Of a stretch of DNA of 31,314 nucleotides, positions 5,526-28,679 are shown piece after piece. Numbering within the stretch: position 1 is the stretch's first letter; every line of letters starts with the position of its first letter. The position numbers were made by a program, and so were the translations under genes. Under the pieces are notes generated by a model. That model was not told the DNA's origin and ran no database searches. It worked only from the letters and a program-made list of their open reading frames with translations. The DNA is from a virus, in IMG/VR virus record IMGVR_UViG_3300030102_004478, positions 885-32,198 of that record. The stretch is one strand, 5' to 3'.

Positions 5526-6245
5526 ATGTTGAGCCTTCTTAAAAAGTTAGCACCAATAGCAGGAGCAATCATAGGAGCGCAGTTTGGTAATCCTGCGCTC
5601 GGTTCTGCGCTTGGAGGTGGTATTGGCTCTTTACTTGCTGGTGCTGAATTAGAAGATGCAATTAAAACAGCAGCAATCGCAGGTATTGGTGGTGCTGCAC
5701 TAAAAGGCCCAGGTGCAGAAACAGCAGCAAGCACCGCTGCCAGTGCTCCAGCAGCGACGGCTAGTGCTCCAACCGTCGCTGCTGGTGCTGATGCGTTAGC
5801 AAAGTCTAAAGCTGCTGGTGCTGGTATTTTAGATCTTATAAAAGAAAATCCACTTACGTCCCTTTCACTTGGAACCTCGGCCCTTGGCCTTCTTGCTGCT
5901 GAAGAAGAGGAAGGTCAAGAATTAACTGATGATCAACTTCGTCAGATAAGAACGTTAGAAACTACAGACTATGAAGGTGATCCTGAGTCTGTCCCTCGTT
6001 TTGATTATTCAAAGATGGCAAAAGTTTTTCAAGAAGGCGGATACATAGAGGGTCCTGGCACCGGTCGTAGTGACAGTATTAACGCTGGTATCTTTCAAAA
6101 TGGTATGAAAGTTCAAGAGGCAAGGTTGTCAGACGGTGAGTTTGTGATGACAGAAAAAGCTGTCCGAGGTTTAGGACAAGGTGATCGTGCAAAAGGGGCC
6201 GCAAAAATGTACGAAATAATGCAGAAATATGAAAGGATGGCCTGA
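5526..6245 (+). CDS. Gly/Ala-rich internal virion protein with C-terminal DGEFVM motif
   Basis: 239 aa; ATG preceded by TAGGAGCGG. The first 60 residues are hydrophobic and small (PIAGAIIGAQFGNPALGSAL, GGGIGSLLAG), and an Ala-rich stretch spans about 60-100. The C-terminus carries GGYIEGPGTGRSDSI (about 171-185) and LSDGEFVMTEKAVRG (about 201-215). That pair is widespread at the end of phage virion or ejection proteins, though its biochemical role is unknown. The hydrophobic N-terminus could interact with membrane during DNA ejection (inference). It is followed by a TGATG one-base overlap with the next gene. A holin is unlikely: there are no clear separate transmembrane helices with a charged tail, and it is too long. 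Confidence 0.6.
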   Translation: MLSLLKKLAPIAGAIIGAQFGNPALGSALGGGIGSLLAGAELEDAIKTAAIAGIGGAALKGPGAETAASTAASAPAATASAPTVAAGADALAKSKAAGAGILDLIKENPLTSLSLGTSALGLLAAEEEEGQELTDDQLRQIRTLETTDYEGDPESVPRFDYSKMAKVFQEGGYIEGPGTGRSDSINAGIFQNGMKVQEARLSDGEFVMTEKAVRGLGQGDRAKGAAKMYEIMQKYERMA

Positions 6246-25200: not shown

Positions 25201-26176
25201 GTATTTTATGGACGAACGTATTCTGCAAAGAGGACCTAACCAAGTACAAAGAGATCTTTTAGGTGATACCACCCCCGAGATTATTCAACGAGCCGAAGCT
25301 GAAGATCTTTTGCTTAGTAAAAATGCTAGCCAAGCTGATAATTTAGAAGAAGGTTTAAAGCTTGGTGTGGAACAGCGGCAAACAAGAGACGAAACAGTTC
25401 AAGAGTTTGCAAGACTAAGAGAACCAACCTCGACTACTGCACCCAAACTTTTTGGTTACCTAGATGTTGATCTTGACGAAAGATTAATGCCTGATACCCG
25501 AAGGCCCTTAATTTTTAAACGCTACAGTCAATATCTTGGTCTCGATTCGGGTGTTAACGAAATTTTCCCAGGATACTTGTATGAAGCAAATGTTACGCAA
25601 CAAAAACAAATTAAAGGTGCGGTGCTTGATGCAATTAGGAACACAGATTCACAAGCAATTAGTTCTCCCGGAGTTGTTAGAATACAGTTACCCGACTTTA
25701 ACCCAAACTTACCTGCCGATGAGGTTCTTAATCCACAATACAAATACATGTCGTCTGAAGGCCAATTTAATGATCCACGTTTAAGTGCTAAGGCATCGGG
25801 TACAACAGAGCAATTTAAACCACAGGTTTATAAAGACATGCATCGTAATCATGTTTCAGTTGTAAAAGACCTAAACGCTGACTTACCCTGGGCGGAAAAA
25901 GGTGAAGTGCCAGAGGGTAAACCACGTTTTTACGCTGACATATTACCAACCGGTAATATTCCAGACCGTGTTTTGGCGACACCAGACAAAAACGAAACAA
26001 TTATGTTAAGGATTAGACCAGTGATTCGTTGGGATAAAGAGGCTGGCGACTACTTTAAAACGGAGCCGTTACCTTTTAGAGATGGTGGCTTGGTCAGCTT
26101 GCCCAAGATGGCTCCTGGTCTGGAGCCTTTGCTCAGAAAGTATCGCAGAGAAGGCACTCTCTCACACTTTATTTAA
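22253..26176 (+). CDS. Giant 1307-aa protein of unknown function, probably virion-associated
   Basis: The ATG lies within the end of the 67-aa gene with no strong ribosome-binding site, so coupling is likely. The N-terminus (ISPGLGSAFGEFFRGQGDDD, then LGRGLTKVPGKAQEFLSQDI) has the Gly-rich, amphipathic look of internal virion proteins, and about 100-140 are helical (LEQADALRAQGQVEQAEGLE). The rest is a mixed, hydrophilic, Asn/Asp/Arg-rich sequence without long hydrophobic segments. Near the C-terminus, PFRDGGLVSLPKMAPG (about 1274-1289) precedes a basic tail (LRKYRREGTLSHFI). No nuclease, protease, kinase, polymerase or toxin motif was identified. Although it adjoins replication genes, its features point to packaged or ejected protein, away from the main virion operon. 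Confidence is high that it is a gene, low for its function. Confidence 0.75.
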   Translation: MARQKRDPTAISPGLGSAFGEFFRGQGDDDSYVEQLGRGLTKVPGKAQEFLSQDIGDIAEDVSDFGVAFGQEVAKQAKENPLKFIAETFTPYGYVVSARETRDLLEQADALRAQGQVEQAEGLEALSTVALLDLIPGGRLFRKAGNRIEIANDISNQDRNNFPIPDRGVSFKPAKQPFIPKGKIGIDQLESGIINKQPKELKEAARKAGIASIVTGKKGQKQIDSELFRENIKSFDTTGDLVVTSKPINRGTSEHPNIGGEDPEGTNLNGNAGVVTFFKRRPGGAAAVENFGPRRSVIQNLIGPNLSQYINSVRGTTAEAHEYDANFDSPDASIDELVETELERLKTTNFGLSEQYENVVSKLLNDDLFKKELKNAIGTRRFKDFNKQIASIRTAATTPGVLVPAGITDNVNRRIVESFEITNPDRGDAETLARGNPSPHVNITLFSRLGMSPDDMGRLMAYAEQEGLDTVSKSLTDQMNFVRVALEQVERNQNLPLDQQDPFSSLDVYNELRDTSRDLIPEYTTSDLVELVDKAKEKFKKQKLEVKDIFLPFARYANNFVFDKNLTSSLRQETTSPVTPIRALLGSDDLFEGRGGGFSFGRIGKMELRDDYRPGVISAGSNQRLFYNENFDDDINLAVDDSVDDIKGLEDTDRHSGEFLRPLDPYVAKHQGGFSRVTDNFVLTNTGGRFFTEDDIGKDLEFEQSLLPRDYIVNSSGRIDTTYTGDVGPAGSVLKARHSLEYQPDPRGQANYGSQLEKDQAEALKTAGTPVRFPATTLNQKVENLKALETIAENKDVLINNQNPTIKNMKNRLHVEILPKPYRAVTFGKRGTKEKATNISTFQDVNPPVNVGLDRSLRPNQLVTRRSDVENLGGELFDGPTDLYKEISGGNINSQYTRDIKTLSKGLAKFTKELKKPVEELTEAEVNNLHKQYFDDLELFNAFERANKHVANTVLLLPQRQADGSPSLSAVEMKKLLNESAVKYFMDERILQRGPNQVQRDLLGDTTPEIIQRAEAEDLLLSKNASQADNLEEGLKLGVEQRQTRDETVQEFARLREPTSTTAPKLFGYLDVDLDERLMPDTRRPLIFKRYSQYLGLDSGVNEIFPGYLYEANVTQQKQIKGAVLDAIRNTDSQAISSPGVVRIQLPDFNPNLPADEVLNPQYKYMSSEGQFNDPRLSAKASGTTEQFKPQVYKDMHRNHVSVVKDLNADLPWAEKGEVPEGKPRFYADILPTGNIPDRVLATPDKNETIMLRIRPVIRWDKEAGDYFKTEPLPFRDGGLVSLPKMAPGLEPLLRKYRREGTLSHFI

Positions 26177-26416
26177 ATCAAATGTGCTCGTGCCATTCGT
26201 ATTGGCACCGTAGAATTGCGCAGCTTCAGCAATAAACGGTAGATCTATCAAGCAGCGAGTGCGGTTCGCTGAGTCCATGGCTGAGAAAGCTTTATGACAT
26301 GCAGCCAGGGCATCTCTTAACGTATCATGTCTGGTGTCAGTGATACCGATCTCAAATAACTTTTGAGATAACTCGTTGCCAGCAAAAACATTTGTTAGCG
26401 GTCTTGCTCCATTCAT
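26162..26416 (-). CDS. Small protein, last gene of the leftward small-gene block
   Basis: 84 aa; its ATG overlaps the TAA of the upstream gene by one base (TAATG). Helical pattern with DTLRDALAACHKAFSAMDSA and RTRCLIDLPFIAEAAQFYGA; two Cys. Its 3' end overlaps the convergent end of the giant gene by 15 bp, leaving no space for a separate terminator. No recognised family. Confidence 0.55.
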   Translation of the reverse strand: MNGARPLTNVFAGNELSQKLFEIGITDTRHDTLRDALAACHKAFSAMDSANRTRCLIDLPFIAEAAQFYGANTNGTSTFDLNKV

Positions 26417-26592
26417 TATTTGTTTTCCTTCATTTTGTTACGTTCGTGTTCCCTGGCACGCTGCCCAACTAATTTTGCAAAGTTCGTTAGCTCGGTTTCG
26501 TTGGCTATATACCCACGTCCACCAATACTGCACATGCCCTCGATATATTTGATACCAGCTTGCAAAGCCAGTTCTTTGATTAAATTTGACAT
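26416..26592 (-). CDS. Small basic protein of unknown function
   Basis: 58 aa from ATG 26592 (MSNLIKELALQAGIKYIEGM); an in-frame TTG at 26604 would add MESV but has no better ribosome site. The pattern IKELALQAGI followed by FAKLVGQRAREHERNKMKEN is helical and basic at the end. First gene after the structured gap 26605-26817, so its expression may be set by that region. It also contains, on the + strand at 26434-26444, an 11-base match (TTTGTTACGTT) to the control region at 20586. No family recognised. Confidence 0.6.
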   Translation of the reverse strand: MSNLIKELALQAGIKYIEGMCSIGGRGYIANETELTNFAKLVGQRAREHERNKMKENK

Positions 26593-26604
26593 GACCGATT
26601 CCAA

Positions 26605-26817
26605 AGATTTAGCCCTAACATTTACAGGACCAGGCTTTTGACTGAACAGTAACTAGGAAAATCCGCCCAAGGATAATTACTGCCAGCATCTCTGGCTTTC
26701 AACAGGAGGTCAACCCTGTGGAGATACTCTTAGCAGCTTACTGCACCTCTGATAACATGGTCATCATCGCAAACACTCAGTAAGCTACTAATAGGAGTGG
26801 TCCCAACCTTGATAAAC
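26605..26817. other. Structured intergenic region with three hairpins (possible ncRNA or cis element)
   Basis: 213 bp without a convincing gene, between the RHH gene and the 58-aa gene. Three inverted repeats follow one another: GCCAG/CTGGC at 26682-26686 and 26692-26696 (5-nt loop); ACAGG/CCTGT at 26702-26706 and 26715-26719 (8-nt loop); and a long one, arms 26727-26743 and 26778-26794, with 15 of 17 positions paired and a 34-nt loop. In a leftward transcript one mismatch of the long stem becomes a G-U pair, giving 16 of 17. No U-tract follows, so it is not a standard terminator; no tRNA T-arm or CCA end is visible. Candidate 5' UTR structure, small RNA, RNA processing site or origin-related cruciform. 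Confidence 0.5.
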
Positions 26818-27006
26818 TTATGACATTTGCTTCTCTACGTCTCTTACCGAGGCATACTGTTCTGGAAACAAATCAAAGTGATATTGTTTAATAACTTCTG
26901 CAGCTTGTCTAGTGATTGACCGGTTCTGCTTCTGTGCGCACTCCTTAAGCAATGCGTATTCGCCCAGGGGCACTGCAACGTTTCGATATCTGCCTTCACG
27001 CGCCAT
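26818..27006 (-). CDS. Ribbon-helix-helix (Arc-like) DNA-binding protein
   Basis: 62 aa. YRNVAVPLGEYALLKECAQK followed by QNRSITRQAAEVIKQYHFD matches the ribbon-helix-helix plan: a short beta strand (NVAVPL), helix A (EYALLKECAQKQ), an NRS turn, and helix B (ITRQAAEVIKQY). Such proteins bind DNA as dimers on tandem sites. It lies near the end of the small-gene operon with the 213-bp structured gap immediately downstream. Targets may be the control regions at 20537-20629 or 30154-30445 (inference). Confidence 0.75.
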   Translation of the reverse strand: MAREGRYRNVAVPLGEYALLKECAQKQNRSITRQAAEVIKQYHFDLFPEQYASVRDVEKQMS

Positions 27007-27007
27007 A

Positions 27008-27184
27008 TTATTCGTCTGCCTTATGAAAAGTTGTTGGTTCTGTGGGCATTATACCCTCAAACTCATCATAAATATACAGATATTGAACACCGTGCTTCTC
27101 ACCAAACTGTTCTCTGGTTAAATTTTCACAATCGTCTTGCAGTTGTTCTTGCAAGTTCGTGTATATCTTCTTGACTTGACCCAT
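27008..27184 (-). CDS. Small acidic protein of unknown function
   Basis: 58 aa from ATG 27184 (MGQVKKIYTNLQEQLQDDCE). This start is chosen because GAGGAG at the end of the upstream gene sits about 5 bases before it and the upstream TAA is only two bases away; a longer reading with an Arg-rich leader is a shadow of the neighbouring gene. The C-terminus contains FGEKHGVQYLYIYDEFEGIM. No family recognised. Confidence 0.6.
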   Translation of the reverse strand: MGQVKKIYTNLQEQLQDDCENLTREQFGEKHGVQYLYIYDEFEGIMPTEPTTFHKADE

Positions 27185-27186
27185 GC

Positions 27187-27399
27187 TTACTCCTCGTCTA
27201 TTGGTTCGTCTACGTCGTCTTGTGTGTAACCAGAAAACATTTCTGGCTTGTACTTCTTTTTTAACTCTTTCAACGTCCACTCGTAGCAGTGATCACAAAC
27301 ATAACCAACCGGAAACGGAATGCCTTGCGCATCTTCCATCACATAAAGGTCGTCGAGATAGTGACCGTTGGCACACGGGGACTCTTTGAAATTAATCAT
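27187..27399 (-). CDS. Small protein with putative zinc site (C-x3-H...C-x2-C)
   Basis: 70 aa. Cys9, His13 (PCANGH), Cys35 and Cys38 (VCDHCYEW) could bind one zinc ion; the C-terminus is acidic (DDVDEPIDEE). The ATG overlaps the previous TGA (ATGA), and no clear ribosome-binding site is present, so translation is probably coupled. No family recognised; candidate host- or phage-protein binder. Confidence 0.65.
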   Translation of the reverse strand: MINFKESPCANGHYLDDLYVMEDAQGIPFPVGYVCDHCYEWTLKELKKKYKPEMFSGYTQDDVDEPIDEE

Positions 27400-27701
27400 G
27401 GCGTAATGTACGCATGAGGTGGTGGCTCATCCCGGGGAATACCTCCACACTCGTACTCTGGTGCATATTTGGACCCCTCGAACAATTCATCAAAGTTCCA
27501 ATCACCAAAGTCTTGACCAAACTTGAACGCACTGTTCAACAACTCAACAAGTTGCCGTTTGTGTGTGATGTCATACTCGGTGATACTCATTTCGTCATGC
27601 GGACCTTTGACCTTGACCAAATATTTTCTCAAAGATGACTTGTTGCCAAAAAACAACACTTCATGCGTGTCGTAATTCAACACTCTAAAAACTGTATTCA
27701 T
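27396..27701 (-). CDS. Small protein of unknown function
   Basis: 101 aa. Predicted alpha/beta: NTVFRVLNYDTHEVLFFGNK, then SSLRKYLVKV and HKRQLVELLNSAF, ending in a Pro-rich tail (PRDEPPPHAYITP). ATG overlaps the TGA of the 51-aa gene upstream (4 bp), with AAGGAGGG in that gene's end as ribosome-binding site. No family recognised. Confidence 0.65.
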   Translation of the reverse strand: MNTVFRVLNYDTHEVLFFGNKSSLRKYLVKVKGPHDEMSITEYDITHKRQLVELLNSAFKFGQDFGDWNFDELFEGSKYAPEYECGGIPRDEPPPHAYITP

Positions 27702-27853
27702 TCAATGTTACCCTCCTTTAATTCATAAAACTGAAATACAGAAATGTCCCCCGTATCAACACACTTGGCAAGATATTGCTTAAACGTATCAATGCACTCT
27801 TCAATTGACTCATGCTCAACTTCATTATGAAAATGGATTTCAAACTTTTTCAT
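27698..27853 (-). CDS. 51-aa protein of unknown function
   Basis: A short gene, MKKFEIHFHNEVEHESIEEC onward, ending in YELKEGNIE. It is supported by an AGGAGC ribosome site 9-10 bases before the ATG, an ATG abutting the upstream TGA (TGAATG), and a 4-bp ATGA overlap with the next gene; the 5' end of the downstream gene's ribosome site is inside it. Alternating hydrophobic residues at the start (FEIHFH) and the IEECIDTFKQYLAK helix suggest a small beta-alpha protein. It fills an otherwise empty 150-bp interval. Confidence 0.6.
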   Translation of the reverse strand: MKKFEIHFHNEVEHESIEECIDTFKQYLAKCVDTGDISVFQFYELKEGNIE

Positions 27854-28045
27854 TCAATGTAGCTCCTGCGCAACGTAGTGCGGTTCAGTTGATTTAAGAG
27901 GCTGTGCGATGGTTGCTGTGTAGGTGTCTTCTTGCTCAAGAAGTTCACCGTAGTTTTTTTCCGCCTCTGCATACGTGTCGCACGTTAGATAATGATCTGT
28001 AAAATCCTCAACATCTATCTTCTTTGTCCATACGACTAAAAACAT
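27854..28045 (-). CDS. 63-aa protein of unknown function
   Basis: Starts at ATG 28045, which overlaps the upstream TGA by one base (TGATG), with GAGGGAG nearby; an in-frame TTG one codon earlier is less likely. MFLVVWTKKIDVEDFTDHYL is followed by an acidic helix (DTYAEAEKNYGELLEQED) and a beta-like end (TYTATIAQPL). Similar in plan to the 51-aa gene just downstream. No family recognised. Confidence 0.6.
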   Translation of the reverse strand: MFLVVWTKKIDVEDFTDHYLTCDTYAEAEKNYGELLEQEDTYTATIAQPLKSTEPHYVAQELH

Positions 28046-28467
28046 CAATGCACACTCCCTCTGTCCTGCTCCACATCCTCTTCTGGATCGTCATCCCAGC
28101 TACAGAACTGATGATTAATGTTATTCAGATTGAGAAAGCCCATGACTTGATACAGTTTTTCTCTGTCACCAAAGGTGTCACTGTCTACATGAACCATGAC
28201 TTCGGTCGCAACCTGTGCGTCTTTCTTAAACTCTTCGATGGATGGCACACACAATAACCTGACAATAATTTCACCGTCATCATTAAGCCAACAAAACATG
28301 ACCTTAATCGGGTTCGACTGTACTACTTCGTCAGTCCATAAATCATGCTCCCCCAGGATGGCTGATAGCGCACCCATAGTGCGCATCATGTCTGCAATCG
28401 ACTTGTTAGCGTCGTTTTGCATTTGTTTTTTAACCTCGTCTTTGAGGGTTAGTTTTTTCGGTTTCAC
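28045..28467 (-). CDS. Protein of unknown function (140 aa)
   Basis: GTG start sharing its G with the upstream stop (TAGTG), with AAGGAG about 10 bases before. N-terminal helix is basic (MKPKKLTLKDEVKKQMQNDA), followed by a possible alpha/beta domain with IKVMFCWLNDDGEIIVRLLC and ATEVMVHVDSDTFGDREKLY, ending in an acidic tail (WDDDPEEDVEQD). No catalytic motif seen. One of the larger members of the coupled block. Confidence 0.6.
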   Translation of the reverse strand: MKPKKLTLKDEVKKQMQNDANKSIADMMRTMGALSAILGEHDLWTDEVVQSNPIKVMFCWLNDDGEIIVRLLCVPSIEEFKKDAQVATEVMVHVDSDTFGDREKLYQVMGFLNLNNINHQFCSWDDDPEEDVEQDRGSVH

Positions 28468-28679
28468 TAATCCATTCTCCTTTCCATATCAATGCCGAGG
28501 TTCTCTGTGTAGAGAACCTCGTAACCTTTACCTTCGCACTTTGCGCACCGCTCGATGATTAACTCATCAACCGAATCCATGCCATGACCACCACAGTTGT
28601 CGCACTCCGCCTCGACATATATCGTGTCTTGGCGAAGCACAATCCGAAGTTGCTCAAACTGCAATATTGTTTTCATCAT
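28467..28679 (-). CDS. Standalone DnaJ-type zinc-finger protein
   Basis: 70 aa. It carries exactly two CxxCxGxG-type motifs: CDNCGGHG (26-33) and CAKCEGKG (45-52), the repeat that in DnaJ binds one zinc ion per pair. It is preceded by a beta-like region (LRIVLRQDTIYVEAE) and followed by a short basic end. No J domain (HPD) is present. The ATG overlaps the upstream TGA (ATGA). Many phages carry such small Zn proteins; their role may be protein remodelling or DNA/RNA contact, not established. Confidence 0.75.
   Translation of the reverse strand: MMKTILQFEQLRIVLRQDTIYVEAECDNCGGHGMDSVDELIIERCAKCEGKGYEVLYTENLGIDMERRMD

Follow-up and report, generated by a model that had tools for sequence, protein, structure and literature searches.

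A gene-free interval with a retained inverted repeat in the leftward gene block of an uncultivated phage, and a gene fragment in the loop of its main hairpin

The interval and its neighbours

The DNA analyzed here (hereafter the window) is a stretch of 31,314 nucleotides, positions 885 to 32,198 of the 32,198-base virus record IMGVR_UViG_3300030102_004478. It encodes a DNA polymerase, an archaeo-eukaryotic-type primase and SNF2-like and UvrD-like helicases. Two of its proteins resemble proteins of phage Pam3, and its closest annotated phages at the protein level are distant ones, such as Phage DSL-LC04 (43%, primase) and phage 023Pt_psg01 (51%, helicase). A block of small leftward genes extends from about 30153 to 26162 and abuts the end of a rightward gene of 1307 aa. 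The genes of this block overlap or abut each other apart from the interval 26605-26817, which is the sole sizeable gap of the block, in agreement with an earlier note on this DNA that had described 213 bp without genes in an otherwise gapless operon. No ORF of at least 40 aa lies wholly within 26605-26817.

The upstream neighbour (26818-27006, minus strand) encodes a small putative DNA-binding protein of 62 aa, ribbon-helix-helix-like as judged by eye, which was matched in 46 of the 50 related records and had no match in Pfam or PHROG. In several records, the relatives of this protein are followed by small basic proteins of the NPIARQVREPRFRKRVVKSKK type. The downstream neighbour (26416-26592, minus strand), 58 aa when counted from its ATG, is conserved in relatives. 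Its start is probably this ATG at 26592, not the TTG at 26604, because the proteins of the relatives align from the ATG, and the true gap would therefore be about 225 nt. The non-coding interval on the minus strand then runs from the gene 27006-26818 to the ATG at 26592, that is, 26593-26817.

Scans of viral contigs found the interval in one other public genome, IMGVR_UViG_3300022074_000122, which is about 92% identical across most of the window and aligns with the interval at L001:2394-2595 (the labels L001, L010, L090 and G001 all refer to this record, hereafter the close relative). When viral contigs were scanned with patterns for the stem and for two conserved stretches, the close relative was the sole further carrier, and a covariance model built from the two sequences gave no third match among the 49 records searched. 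Apart from the loop of the main hairpin, about 200 nt of gene-free sequence within this packed block are retained there with an identity like that of the neighbouring genes. Elsewhere, the window has 152 nt with a 51-aa gene at 27697-27848 that are absent in the close relative, and the close relative has 99 extra nt (contig 26296-26394) with a small membrane-protein-like frame; these differences are small-gene turnover. A small gene in the interval itself was considered and rejected, with no frame whose start is kept in both genomes: the close relative has a 45-codon frame with a TTG start, and the window version is without a start codon and has an in-frame stop in the stem.

More distant relatives are arranged differently at this place. 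The contigs L003, L004, L005 and L007 have the same flanking genes, with about 55-62% protein identity, and between them two small overlapping frames, the first membrane-protein-like and starting at the upstream stop codon, and the second basic (NYVHK type). The same arrangement was seen in L122 and L123, and the basic NYVHK-type protein was not found in the record of the close relative. Because these distant relatives carry two small frames between the same flanking genes, the gap seems to be a replacement specific to the lineage of the window and its close relative. In L003-L007 a hairpin with T-rich sequence behind it was considered as a terminator and rejected, since it falls within a small open frame in these contigs.

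The main hairpin and the smaller helices

The main hairpin is formed by an inverted repeat at 26727-26743 and 26778-26794, which in leftward RNA would be the 3' arm and the 5' arm, respectively. As the earlier note had claimed, the stem has 17 positions with 15 Watson-Crick matches and a loop of 34 nt. The mismatches are at 26729/26792 and 26734/26787, and the latter, C.A on the plus strand, becomes a G-U pair in leftward RNA alone (U26787 with G26734), which is also as had been claimed. Smaller hairpins are present as well, all on the minus strand: ACAGG...CCTGT at 26702-26719, where the sole change in the close relative falls in the loop; GCCAG-agatg-CTGGC at 26682-26696, identical in the close relative and predicted to have other pairing partners in leftward RNA; and a repeat at 26647-26655/26674-26682 that is part of a helix region at 26640-26687. 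Dinucleotide shuffling of the interval (400 shuffles) gave no 17-nt inverted repeat with 15 matches and twice one with 14, the highest value seen. When the window was cut into 291 overlapping tiles of 213 nt, two of them had a 15-match repeat of this length. The main hairpin is thus rare yet not unique in the window, since the rightward gene 5526-6245 contains an inverted repeat of like quality at 5745-5788, 16 nt long and 94% complementary, with 12 nt between its arms.

The main stem was retained in the close relative despite a changed loop, which is without 26 nt found in the window and is altered in the remainder. It has 12 perfect pairs there, and the G-U pair at 26787 is G-C. In the joint structure of the two genomes there are four varying pairs, all of which remain paired in leftward RNA. 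Three of them differ by one-sided changes, U-G/C-G in the main stem and U-G/C-G and G-C/G-U in the helix at 26640-26687; the fourth, G-C/U-A at the stem tip, is two-sided and hinges on the chosen alignment of the loop. This retention is partly expected because these two sequences were also used to derive the consensus structure, and when a structure is fitted to their rightward strands, it likewise keeps every pair. The earlier note had proposed that related intervals be aligned and inspected for covarying pairs; our alignment gave pairs kept in the leftward direction, and, with two sequences and a structure fitted to them, this suggests covariation only as a hint.

When the fold of the interval was compared with those of shuffled sequences, the leftward strand of the window was better than the shuffles (z about -2.1 to -2.3; z -2.10, 4/200) and the rightward strand was no better (z -0.43). 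In the close relative both strands folded strongly, with z -2.80 leftward and -2.89 rightward. The leftward fold would rank about 10th among 139 leftward tiles of the window, and leftward folding of the interval is unremarkable genome-wide. The strongest predicted fold among the tiles of the window, at 28351-28575 (z -4.7 leftward and -3.8 rightward), sits in coding sequence, partly in the gene 28467-28679, which has CxxCxGxG-like motifs. The selection on leftward RNA at which the earlier note had hinted receives weak support: the change of G-U to G-C, the two further changes that keep pairing and the leftward z of -2.10 speak for it, but there are two sequences and the close relative folds on both strands. 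Taken as a whole, the interpretation in that note is only partly supported.

Outside the main stem the best folds of the two genomes disagree. In the window, an inner helix (26610-26617/26625-26632) and a 3' strand at 26601-26608 (partner 26688-26695) are predicted within 26601-26632 on the minus strand, where they would cover the downstream neighbour's probable ribosome-binding site. In both genomes the GGA that precedes the ATG at 26592 by seven bases is predicted to be paired, though in different pairings. The motif GTATCTCC was retained although small indels adjoin it on both sides. A two-state switch, GTATCTCC/GAGATGC versus CCAGAGAT/ATCTTTGG, was considered and set aside: the state favoured by one genome (0.02/0.41) is the opposite of that favoured by the other (0.99/0.01), which may mean a switch or a poor prediction.

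A gene fragment in the loop

When related records were searched at the DNA level with the interval, the record of the close relative gave a second match (26 nt, 92% identity; E = 1.9e-5 for this record). The matching stretch of the loop (26747-26773, minus strand) is a copy of the FAMMTMLSE codons from a gene in this phage lineage that encodes 141 aa and lies on the minus (leftward) strand at G001:C1:32483-32905. The two are identical at 24 of 27 positions, 18 of them contiguous, and all three differences are synonymous; shuffled loops reached at most 20/27 in 60 shuffles. The 27-nt copy is missing from the loop of the close relative, though this genome carries the 141-aa gene. The gene is absent from the window's record, and the locus where the close relative has it falls beyond the end of that record. 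The version in the record of L004 differs at the FAMMTMLSE residues. Among nine short indels compared between the window and the close relative, the loop alone has such a remote gene source. The loop sequence at 26740-26780 may contain an assembly artefact. The copied fragment is the most informative new fact about this interval, and that the loop could accept a gene fragment counts against a role for the loop itself.

Possible roles of the interval

Directly observed are the repeat, the fact that one relative retains it, the small frames that other relatives carry at this place, and the copied fragment in the loop. We slightly prefer the reading that the interval is a folded untranslated spacer in the leftward polycistronic mRNA, acting in cis (probability roughly 0.4), because pairing is kept outside the main repeat and a gene-like identity is maintained in a packed block. 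The interval would have replaced the two small overlapping frames of related phages in the lineage of the window and its close relative. Transcription would run across it, and in the cell the leftward RNA would form the main hairpin and later helices able to cover the downstream neighbour's probable ribosome-binding site. The likely effect on expression would be to set how the message of the last two genes (26592-26162) is cleaved, how stable it is or how well it is translated, compared with that of the earlier genes.

Leader structures that cover a ribosome-binding site are a general class. The interval resembles them in the predicted pairing over the GGA before the ATG at 26592 in both genomes, and differs from them in that the window and the close relative pair differently and in having no Rfam match. 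Hairpins between the cistrons of phage mRNAs are also known, for example the RNase III sites of T7 early mRNA, so a hairpin in such a gap is an already known kind of feature. Here, too, the hairpin occupies a short gap in what is presumably a polycistronic phage transcript; the likeness to the T7 sites is one of position and hairpin.

Nearly as likely, the repeat is a DNA palindrome that has no role as RNA. It would date from the loss of the two small genes and have been kept neat by template switching of the polymerase. Switching from arm to arm would homogenise the arms and invert the spacer, and a copied scrap would have been caught in the loop. Conservation of the stem would therefore require no selection. 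Both homogenisation of the arms and inversion of the spacer by template switching have been described for short inverted repeats (PMC8604942), where the inverted spacers were changes of 2-5 bp in yeast genes. The present repeat is similar to those in its near-perfect arms, changed spacer and better alignment of the inverted spacer, but differs in its longer insert, the remote gene source and the two alleles known. The 12-nt spacer of the close relative aligned better when inverted (-0.4 versus -9.0 for the direct alignment, at about the 99th percentile of 2000 shuffles), a signal that is based on 12 nt. The gene copy in the loop, found for one of the nine short indels checked, also speaks for the palindrome, which would likewise give the strong folding of both strands of the close relative and the retention of rightward pairs. 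On the other hand, it does not predict that changes in the helix at 26640-26687 preserve pairing better leftward than rightward, nor that the remaining interval is retained at gene-like identity, and simple arm-to-arm switching does not supply a remote donor.

A narrower form of the cis-acting spacer, an RNase III-type processing site or a stabilising 3' hairpin within the leftward mRNA, seems unlikely when taken by itself. Its position between cistrons of a gapless block and an uninterrupted helix of at least 12 pairs in both genomes would fit such a site; in open-access literature, nothing was found on T7-type processing hairpins.

We consider it quite improbable that the interval is an independent small RNA gene or a cruciform for replication, both of which the earlier note had suggested for this gap of fitting size with hairpins. 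The promoter scan, which used the consensus for sigma-70-type sites only, gave one weak leftward promoter-like site (26702-26673, 9/12), within the number expected by chance and with a second hexamer that is worse in the close relative; no terminator-like site (a GC-rich stem directly followed by a U-run) was found on either strand of 26593-26817. Rfam gave no match in 25500-28000 at E values up to 5, no tRNA or tmRNA was found, annotated phages and plasmids gave no DNA-level relative of the interval, and bacterial genomes had no exact match to a 20-nt conserved stretch of it. Neither an independent small RNA nor an intrinsic terminator has support from these scans. The cruciform has no positive evidence, and nothing found links the interval to replication.

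Still less probable is an antisense role of the loop. The 141-aa gene is on the leftward strand, and rightward RNA of the loop would therefore be complementary to its mRNA, so that 27 nt matching this gene with 18 contiguous identities could be exposed to the message of the phage's own or a competing phage's gene. Against this, the rightward strand of the window folds at chance level, no rightward promoter-like site was found in the interval, the close relative has the 141-aa gene yet is without this loop, and the gene is outside the record of the window phage. The least probable reading is a loop-exchange site, in which fixed arms would hold a loop that acquires copies of phage or rival genes to give antisense or decoy RNAs.

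If the interval does act on mRNA as a folded cis-acting spacer, it would add a cis element to a little-described group of uncultivated phages. The two alleles with a shared stem, one of them with a gene copy, would make a clean natural example of loops gaining sequence, and because the source gene of the copy was identified, this idea is testable with more genomes.

The motif TTAGTCTAAT, which is repeated beyond the window in the close relative, had no occurrence in the interval. In the close relative's genome it belongs to repeated elements that lie between leftward small genes at L098:300-3050, mostly past the window's end. These consist of a TTGT...ACAA palindrome adjoining TTAGTCTAAT, one or two palindromic elements of 37-71 nt (TGCGCTTCGACGATTGCG...) and a leftward terminator-like hairpin, and the hairpin element is present there in at least six copies within about 3 kb.
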